In this document: positions 18,524-19,429 of the stretch, one piece after another
How positions within the stretch are numbered: the first letter of the stretch is position 1
How the letters are laid out: each line of letters opens with the position of its first letter
Source of the DNA: a virus
Direction: 5' to 3' (one strand)
Length of the DNA stretch: 20,536 nucleotides
IMG/VR virus record: IMGVR_UViG_3300042294_002890
Location: 1-20,536 of that record
Notes under the pieces: generated by a model
What the model was told of the DNA's origin: nothing
Database searches by the model: none
Seen by the model: the letters and a program-made list of their open reading frames with translations, nothing else
Made by a program: the position numbers and the translations under genes

Positions 18524-18711
18524 TAAAATACAAATACGAAGAATTGGACTTTCATGTTGATTCAGAATCAGGAAACTTGGTTATCGACTACGGAGAAAAT
18601 GTAGTTGAAATAGAAAATCACTTTGCAATAGAGCTTGTTGAAATATTGAGACAGAAACTCTATTTGCATAGAGAACAAAAAGAAAGTGTAATCAAACGAT
18701 TCTTTAAATAA
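18520..18711 (+). CDS. Small unknown acidic-to-basic protein
   Basis: 63 residues. YEELDFHVDSESGNLVIDYG and ENVVEIENHFAIELVEIL are acidic, and the end (HREQKESVIKRFFK) is basic. The start overlaps the previous stop (ATGA) and the stop overlaps the next start (TAATG), so it is part of a tightly coupled set. No family recognised. Confidence 0.7.
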   Translation: MIKYKYEELDFHVDSESGNLVIDYGENVVEIENHFAIELVEILRQKLYLHREQKESVIKRFFK

Positions 18712-18998
18712 TGGAAGAAGCTCAAGTACTCAATCCCTTTGGATACCTATCTGCTACCAAGGTACTCGATGAAAACCGCAAACCTAGTGAGTGGTGGATT
18801 GAGTACCAAGAGTTTAACGAAATAGTAGCTGAAAACGAATTCTATGTTCTTTTTTCAGATGGGTTACTGGTTAAAAAAGGAAGGTCTAAGTTTACGACTA
18901 GCCAGTATTTAAAATCAGAGAAGTTTGTATCATTTAATGAATTCTATAATAAAGAAGCTTTAGAAGATGATTGGGTTATGGTTGTTGGAATAATTTAA
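18711..18998 (+). CDS. Unknown protein, 95 residues
   Basis: The start shares one base with the previous stop. The sequence is aromatic and acidic: LNPFGYLSATKV, PSEWWIEYQEFNEIVAENEF, LFSDGLLVKKGRSKFTTSQYL. A mixed alpha/beta domain is likely, without cysteines or membrane segments. It is the last gene of the coupled run that starts at 17614; the tRNA-like element follows. No family recognised. Confidence 0.7.
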   Translation: MEEAQVLNPFGYLSATKVLDENRKPSEWWIEYQEFNEIVAENEFYVLFSDGLLVKKGRSKFTTSQYLKSEKFVSFNEFYNKEALEDDWVMVVGII

Positions 18999-19044: not shown

Positions 19045-19147
19045 AGTCAGGTGGCGGAATGTAGACGCACATTGGAACTGCTTGTAAAAGTAATGGCACG
19101 TTGAGATAACCTTAGATGTGCGTGCAGGATCATAACCTGCCCTGACT
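19045..19147 (+). tRNA. Class II tRNA-like element with distorted anticodon arm
   Basis: Acceptor AGTCAGG (19045-19051) pairs perfectly with CCTGACT (19141-19147). TG follows, then the D arm GCG-GAATGTAGA-CGC (19054-19068). The T arm is GCAGG-ATCATAA-CCTGC (19124-19140). A long variable arm has GCAC/GTGC ends. These are class II features (Leu, Ser or Tyr). The anticodon arm is odd: CATT+ACT (19070-73, 19077-79) can pair with AGTAATG (19089-95) only if GGA bulges out, leaving loop GCTTGTAAA, which contains TTGTAAA, the loop usual for Tyr (GTA). The T loop lacks TTC and no CCA is encoded. It may be a decayed or unusual tRNA, or a tRNA mimic. Confidence 0.55.
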
Positions 19148-19162
19148 TAAAAATAAAAAAAT

Positions 19163-19429
19163 ATGATACCACCATTTGCAATCCAAGTAGAAGAAGTCCT
19201 AGAGCATATTCATAAAATGCTTATCGACAAAAATCGTAAGTATGGCAACTCTGCATTAGAGCCTCTTGGCGTGTTTAGTCAGTTGTCCGCAAAAGAAGGA
19301 CTACTGATTCGAATTGATGACAAACTAAAGCGAATTAAAAACGGAAGCTTAGAGAAAGATGATGAGGATGTTGTAAATGACTTAATTGGTTACCTTGTTC
19401 TTTTGAAGATCAGCGATAATGTAAAGTAG
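19163..19429 (+). CDS. MazG/Nmad1-like nucleotide-related protein
   Basis: 88 residues, wholly helical. VEEVLEHIHKMLIDKNRKYG then LGVFSQLSAKEGLLIRIDDK and DEDVVNDLIGYLVLL follow the pattern of the small all-alpha NTP-pyrophosphohydrolase-like family that includes Nmad1/DUF1599: K-x-R-K-Y-G, R-x-D-D-K-L-x-R, and E/D-D-x-x-N-D-L. In phages these occur with nucleotide-pool or base-modification genes. Acidic residues Asp52, Asp53, Asp67-Asp69 and Asp73 could bind Mg. The protein may clear or protect dNTPs; modified bases are not proven by this gene alone. It begins 16 bases after the tRNA-like element. Confidence 0.75.
   Translation: MIPPFAIQVEEVLEHIHKMLIDKNRKYGNSALEPLGVFSQLSAKEGLLIRIDDKLKRIKNGSLEKDDEDVVNDLIGYLVLLKISDNVK

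Follow-up and report, generated by a model that had tools for sequence, protein, structure and literature searches.

A tRNA-framed RNA element in an environmental phage genome and its relation to a family of phage cassettes with exchangeable cores

The element and its genomic setting

The window, by which we mean the whole stretch of DNA analysed (20,536 nucleotides), is a 20.5-kb virus record of IMG/VR with genes for portal, capsid, protease, terminase, primase-helicase and methyltransferase. The element described here is intergenic and lies at 19045-19147 on the plus strand, between two genes of the same strand at 18711-18998 (95 aa, without a match in the family search) and 19163-19429 (88 aa, phrog_1485, of unknown function). 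Both flanking proteins were used to fetch related loci. Elsewhere in the window, a strong GC-rich hairpin followed by a T run was detected behind the capsid gene on the minus strand (1988-2043); it is terminator-like and gives a weak L20 leader score.

The ~103-nt element opens with the acceptor strand AGTCAGG (19045-19051), which pairs over 7 bp with CCTGACT (19141-19147), and the base following the acceptor is T, not A. The D-like arm (19054-19068) pairs GCG (19054-19056) with CGC (19066-19068) around the loop GAATGTAGA, which has no GG. The T-like arm (19124-19140) pairs GCAGG (19124-19128) with CCTGC (19136-19140) around the loop ATCATAA (19129-19135). The sequence-only reading of this DNA had described perfect acceptor and T stems, the GCG/CGC D stem and a T loop lacking the TTC core, all of which we confirmed. 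Absent from that description was a long variable arm (19096-19121, tip AGATAACCTTA at 19104-19114), which gives the element a class II-like layout. The acceptor, D, T and long variable stems are all paired in the window copy (33/33 modelled pairs intact), and the fold of the element strand is better than that of shuffles (z -2.43; 3/200 shuffles equal or better).

The anticodon-like arm (19070-19095) is altered. Its outer stem, CATT (19070-19073) with AATG (19092-19095), encloses the core motif GGAACTGCTTGTAAAAGT (19074-19091), modelled as a 6-nt 5' bulge (GGAACU; GGAACT in the DNA, 19074-19079) and the hairpin GCUU-GUAA-AAGU (GCTT-GTAA-AAGT, 19080-19091). It had been pointed out that removing GGA and GC would leave the regular arm CATTACT-TTGTAAA-AGTAATG, and the sequence bears this out.

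ARAGORN called neither a tRNA, with or without introns, nor a tmRNA with a tag peptide at the element in the window, and Rfam at permissive thresholds gave nothing tRNA-like or credible there and no match at gathering score; an intron-bearing tRNA and a known RNA family were rejected on these results. The element has the 7-bp acceptor and the 5-bp T stem of a functional tRNA, but its arm is bulged where a 5-bp anticodon stem with a 7-nt loop is expected, and the elbow signatures (UUCRANN in the T loop, GG in the D loop) are replaced by AUCAUAA and GAAUGUAGA. With the anticodon arm and elbow both deviating, the element is no ordinary tRNA and can be read as a tRNA mimic, as had been suggested.

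Conservation of the stems and of the core motif

Relatives were gathered through the two flanking proteins, frame patterns and the core motif (26 stretches from the motif scan), giving 22 distinct members. Pair statistics were calculated on alignment A2, which holds 15 sequences of subfamily A only and leaves out L028, L330, L341 and L418; subfamily B was counted by rule. Among the 15 aligned members the stems pair in 98.8% of 495 cells (93.2% in shuffles), nine pairs show changes on both sides (3.7 in shuffles) and covariation is 0.197 (0.081 in shuffles), values reached by 0/500 shuffles, although such counts favour a structure that was partly derived from those same sequences. The measure of further pair types is weakly above shuffles (38/500 reach it), and shifting the partner by 1 to 3 columns lowers pairing in these members to 27-52%.

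Compensatory changes are present in the acceptor, D, outer anticodon, variable and T stems. The acceptor changed as a pair in L057 and L360 (AGTCATG/CATGACT) and is wholly different yet paired in L341 (TCAGATG/CATCTGA). The D stem alternates by one pair, C-G in 12/22 members (GCG/CGC) and T-A in 10/22 (GTG/CAC), while the outer helix of the anticodon-like arm is CATT/AATG, CATC/GATG or ACCC/GGGT and is paired in 22/22. In the variable arm GCACAT/ATGTGC stands against GCGCTC/GAGCGC in L210, and both-side changes were found in 3 of the 5 T-stem pairs. Mismatches among the 15 aligned members affect the first acceptor pair (missing in two) and the second (missing in one); L028 has two mismatches, one in the innermost acceptor pair and the other within the T stem. 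The covariance model of the family locates the window copy at exactly 19045-19147, this copy being one of its training sequences.

The tRNA-like element at 19045-19147 is real, intact and selected. Selection on the stems had been proposed from the sequence, with a comparison of homologous loci as the check; this comparison detected compensatory change (0/500 shuffles, as above), and the acceptor and T stems do not erode randomly among relatives as in a pseudogene. Stems inside the core are also retained through compensatory change, which indicates an RNA function.

The motif GAACTGCTTGTAAAAGT is invariant in 20/20 aligned members, some of which were recovered through that very motif. A looser motif search and later scans added only L330 and L418 as altered copies; both carry ACTACTTGT (G to A), and the affected pair is kept as A-U. 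Because minimum-energy folds form a GUAA-capped hairpin in the anticodon-like arm and these two variants keep the pair, we suggest that the arm may adopt the GUAA hairpin rather than the bulged stem closed by ACU/AGU with the loop UUGUAAA considered earlier, a preference between models and not a proof. The bulge that had been reported is present, but it is no accident of a distorted arm, since it belongs to the most conserved part of the element and possibly to a GUAA hairpin.

The variable-arm tip is alike in both subfamilies (AGATAACCTTA in most of A, AGATAATCGTAAG in B, with exceptions such as L057). The D loop has no GG and the T loop no TTC in many subfamily A members; the T loop TTCRAAT is retained in L009, L347, L352 and L013. 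Conservation therefore peaks on the odd anticodon-like arm and is lowest on the tRNA elbow.

The family of tRNA-framed cassettes and the exchange of cores

The AGTCAGG-like acceptor, the TGGCGGAA D-arm start and a matching T arm and acceptor are found in the window element and belong to a common frame, AGTCAGG-TGGCGGAA ... CAGGTTCRAATCCTG-TCCTGACT. A regular-expression search of 155 loci gave 24 distinct cassettes with AGTCAGGTGGCGGAA ... CAGGTTCGAATCCTGTCCTGACT as their frame, two IMG/VR pattern scans raised the count to at least 276, and looser settings together with the core-motif loci raised it to at least 296 distinct cassettes from environmental phages, some of them longer than 260 nt and partly chance joins, which were dropped before the exchange, promoter and core-fold analyses. 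The cassettes fall into at least 199 core clusters by single linkage, the largest of which chains in at least one foreign core (L227). Most cassettes continue with ACN directly behind the frame.

ARAGORN typed 61 of the at least 276 cassettes as tRNAs of many kinds; on visual inspection some of these are canonical (L013 Ile, L308 Ile), but the anticodons of most resemble chance matches. Some AGTCAGG elements, such as the tRNA-Ile of L013, are true tRNAs, and the frame is therefore not reserved for non-tRNA RNAs. A second scanner, which required a T arm and a 7-bp acceptor, detected at least 429 distinct elements, including 206 with an AGTCAGG-like acceptor and no tRNA type, 49 AGTCAGG-like with a type, 151 with another acceptor and a type, and 23 with another acceptor and no type; after shuffling of the acceptor strand, 13/726 T arms matched. 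Among those 23 are L337 (AGTGCAG), L343 (AGGTAAG), L202 (AGCAAGA) and L187 (GAGATAG), whose D-arm start is unchanged; different acceptors on the same architecture are fully paired in L337 and L341. In six loci (L160, L195, L215, L217, L280, L238) an anticodon-like hairpin seems, by eye, to sit at the place of the D arm, with GGTTRCA before the T arm; ARAGORN left these untyped.

The window-family covariance model detected 194 places in 98 chosen sources, with window-core members scoring at least 58.9 bits and the remaining frame-like matches at most 53.2 bits. The window element was without a match in the named phage and plasmid collections. Among GenBank phages one frame relative was found, MW202828.1 (L337), whose core comes from the family of L014 and whose different acceptor is fully paired, and the exact 27-base frame start is present in two contigs of the bacterial and archaeal genome set. 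Rfam searches of 13 cassette-rich loci gave tRNA-type matches (ordinary tRNAs and frames), freshwater-1 just below its cut-off, and others below their cut-offs. The freshwater-1 match (RF02979, 70.1 bits, gathering 72; L169:4124-4186) lies within an island of tRNAs and tRNA-framed cassettes. Phage attachment-site (attP) fragments were considered and set aside, since matches such as the one in S-TIP37 are fragments of tRNAs close to an integrase and distinct from the cassettes. The S-TIP37 sequence (MH540083.1, L338:1501-1543) is an unannotated tRNA-Leu-like fragment ~90 bases behind the cyanophage integrase gene, probably an attachment site.

Cores fold slightly better than shuffles, with a mean z of -0.71 (151 of the 199 cluster representatives) against -0.14 for 142 downstream controls, and 16% of cores against 9% of controls at p<=0.05, a small excess. 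Antisense action on the phage's own contig was unsupported: the longest complement averages 9.68 nt against 9.72 nt in shuffles (n=72, drawn from the first 120 of the 199 representatives with cores <35 nt dropped).

The site of the window element varies among related phages: it is empty in L005, L021 and others, holds the same element in L002, L003, L007 and L009, a different core in L014 (compared with L013/L009) and two cassettes in L016 and L028, and in L013 there is an additional tRNA-Ile with the same acceptor. In a comparison of 294 cassettes, where two shared an upstream identity of 0.8 or more, their cores were near-identical in some cases and clearly unrelated in others. The exchange is clearest at a locus where the end of the upstream gene runs into TAGTATATTTGCATT immediately before the frame. 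The element is complete in 56 of the 58 contigs of this locus (two are cut by the contig end), and these 56 hold 29 distinct elements from 16 unrelated core clusters. Downstream lies the same gene in most of the contigs listed, and a further cassette or other sequence in some. By our reading, several cores of this locus are also found elsewhere, L390 with the L204/L280 cluster, L391 with L268 and L396 with L164. Cores are replaced in place while the tRNA frame stays nearly constant.

The 23 copies of the window core that differ in upstream sequence occupy at least nine genomic contexts, some of which may be lumped since the identity cut-off of 0.65 is close to the shuffled controls (up to 0.66). 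A second core family of 13 distinct elements is similarly spread; GGG/CCC, GAG/CTC or GTC/GAC pairs close its inner hairpin. The D-loop insert AGTGTRCCCTGTTWTTACGGGAAGTACATRGGAA is joined to different cores (L037, L091, L150, L330/L418, L417, L420), and single phages carry several cassettes with different cores among ordinary tRNAs, eight in L163. Some large phage contigs, such as that around L163:1109-1182, contain long RNA islands with ordinary tRNAs, multi-acceptor cassettes and little coding sequence. Two short sequences accompany cassettes. A trailer, AAGGCTAAGCGATCCCACCTGCCTACAATTGGGATGTGAGTTGTTAGTAGGTAGCCTT, recurs just downstream in L004, L009, L013, L014, L016 and L025 and could form nested helices and a pseudoknot followed by a T-rich run, either a terminator or another RNA. 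A hairpin-like linker, CTCGGAAAGACGAG or similar, precedes several cassettes (L163, L169, L013, L018).

The box TAnnTTTG, which we take to be the Bacteroidota -7 promoter element, was found 10-19 nt upstream of the first frame nucleotide in 22/280 distinct upstream regions, about 10 of which represent the single TAGTATATTTGCATT locus; other 10-nt bins hold 0 to 7 boxes, and the reversed motif occurs twice in the 10-19 bin. In a minority of cassettes a promoter-like box is thus positioned such that transcription could begin with the first base of the RNA, and the hosts, judged by this promoter type, are probably Bacteroidota. The window copy has no TAnnTTTG box near the frame and would be co-transcribed.

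Candidate functions and significance

The best explanation, to which we give about an even chance of being correct, is that the element is a structured non-coding RNA of ~103 nt and a member of a modular phage RNA family, in which an exchangeable core acts as the effector on a tRNA frame. The near-constant outside would be this frame (acceptor stem, D-arm start, T arm), and the exchangeable inside of the window copy would comprise the bulged hairpin with GGAACUGCUUGUAAAAGU and the long variable arm tipped by AGAUAACCUUA. The near-identical frame ends may recombine, so that cores are swapped within a locus and moved between phages. Host RNase P, tRNase Z and CCA addition would act on the frame of most members and yield a stable RNA whose ends are defined. 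For the window copy, RNase P maturation is the least secure step, because the D and T loops of its subfamily are altered. This subfamily has no D-loop GG and often no TTC, and the T after the window acceptor misfits ordinary tRNA maturation, suggesting that its processing may differ.

The most likely action of the core would be to bind a protein or RNA of the host or of a competitor; such a target-binding effector is favoured because the core motif is invariant on both hairpin strands and complementarity to the own contig is at chance level. That unrelated cores replace one another at one locus while the phages are otherwise similar would fit counter-defence or phage-phage competition, with counter-defence as our best guess; our analysis of the cassettes revealed neither a companion gene nor a target or a link to defence.

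The frame itself could instead be the function, as a bait for tRNA-targeting enzymes, with the core merely keeping the RNA out of translation. The frame is much better conserved than the cores, and defence nucleases that read a tRNA at its acceptor, tail and T arm exist, namely Cas12a3 (PMC12851939), as do phage tRNAs that counter tRNA-targeting defence (PMC10264068). We consider the bait unlikely, since it alone needs neither the invariant core motif of the window element nor cores that recur across contexts, and since the T loop and the post-acceptor base are degraded in the window subfamily. The related proposal of the sequence-only reading, a tRNA with a nuclease-resistant anticodon arm, found no support: it leaves unexplained the unrelated cores of sister elements at the same site, most of which have no recognisable anticodon arm.

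The cassettes may also be selfish, their frame ends serving as exchange sites for homologous recombination, homing endonucleases or an integrase and their cores being passengers kept by mobility. Presence, absence and exchange at one site, the multiple copies per phage and an ORF in the L169 island that looks GIY-YIG-like by eye are consistent with this proposal, but copies within one phage differ in core instead of duplicating one element, and compensatory change preserves the stems within the core; we regard this proposal as improbable.

The tRNAs of some organelles separate mRNAs, and the frame might similarly provide cut sites in long phage transcripts, with drifting cores. The window element is intergenic between same-strand genes and cassette arrays lie between genes and tRNAs, which fits such punctuation; however, cores are near-identical within a cluster and unrelated between clusters, which is not drift, and in some cassettes a promoter-like box is placed at the first base of the cassette itself. 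We give this explanation little credence. Less still is given to an aminoacylated RNA of tRNA-like or tmRNA-like type with a role at the ribosome or in tRNA-dependent chemistry. The frame, which has a tRNA-Leu-like D-arm start and, in most cassettes, an A after the acceptor, could be charged by synthetases that do not read the anticodon (LeuRS, AlaRS, SerRS), but the cores share nothing and the window copy does not have this A. Finally, a decaying tRNA-Tyr, proposed because the loop UUGUAAA could hold the anticodon GUA in the earlier fold and compatible with the missing ARAGORN call, is rejected almost completely, because the altered arm is invariant in the aligned relatives and present in nine or more contexts, the stems of relatives change in a compensatory way and every modelled pair of the window copy is intact.

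The exchangeable-core reading has several points of contact with known systems. Bacterial class II tRNAs (Leu/Tyr/Ser type) share the acceptor stem, the T arm, the D-arm start TGGCGGAAUUGGUAGACGC and the long variable arm, whereas the element is without a canonical anticodon arm, its D and T loops are changed in the window, and sister cores are unlike any tRNA. The tmRNA combines tRNA-like ends with a different structure where a tRNA has its anticodon arm; the cassettes resemble it in this replacement but are short, have mutually unrelated cores and received no tmRNA call from ARAGORN. Freshwater-1 (RF02979) is likewise a small RNA and shares one phage RNA island (L169) with the cassettes, but the AGTCAGG frame was not seen around it. 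The phage tRNAs that counter host defence are also phage-encoded with an altered anticodon region and a possible defence link, but they are working tRNAs with point changes (PMC10264068), whereas most cassettes have no usable anticodon arm. GOLLD and ROOL are structured phage RNAs of unknown function, as are the cassettes, often near tRNA islands, but they extend over hundreds of nucleotides with conserved folds and have no tRNA frame (PMC12286853). The closest analogue is the engineered aptamer-tagged tRNA chassis, a tRNA body with a foreign RNA module, which is man-made (PMC7590224), while the cassette family is natural and swaps cores by itself.

In openly licensed papers, to which our literature search was limited, a description of such a family was not found. 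The more general proposal, which we put forward tentatively and would not be surprised to see fail, is that phages, of Bacteroidota by their promoter type, maintain an arsenal of RNA effectors on a common tRNA scaffold, matured and protected by the tRNA machinery of the host, traded through recombination at the conserved scaffold ends and inhibiting or misleading defences or competitors, akin to traded anti-defence proteins, with the window element as one payload. In phages, turnover of this kind usually marks loci that fight hosts or rivals. The examples of such loci known to us are almost all proteins, and a family of small RNAs that combines many unrelated cores with one constant frame readable by enzymes would be their RNA counterpart. 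The family would supply natural RNA modules for binding tests and would account for part of the odd phage 'tRNA genes' that are given impossible types or missed by annotation tools. The scale of at least 199 core clusters indicates an unannotated layer of phage RNA, even if its function should be mundane.
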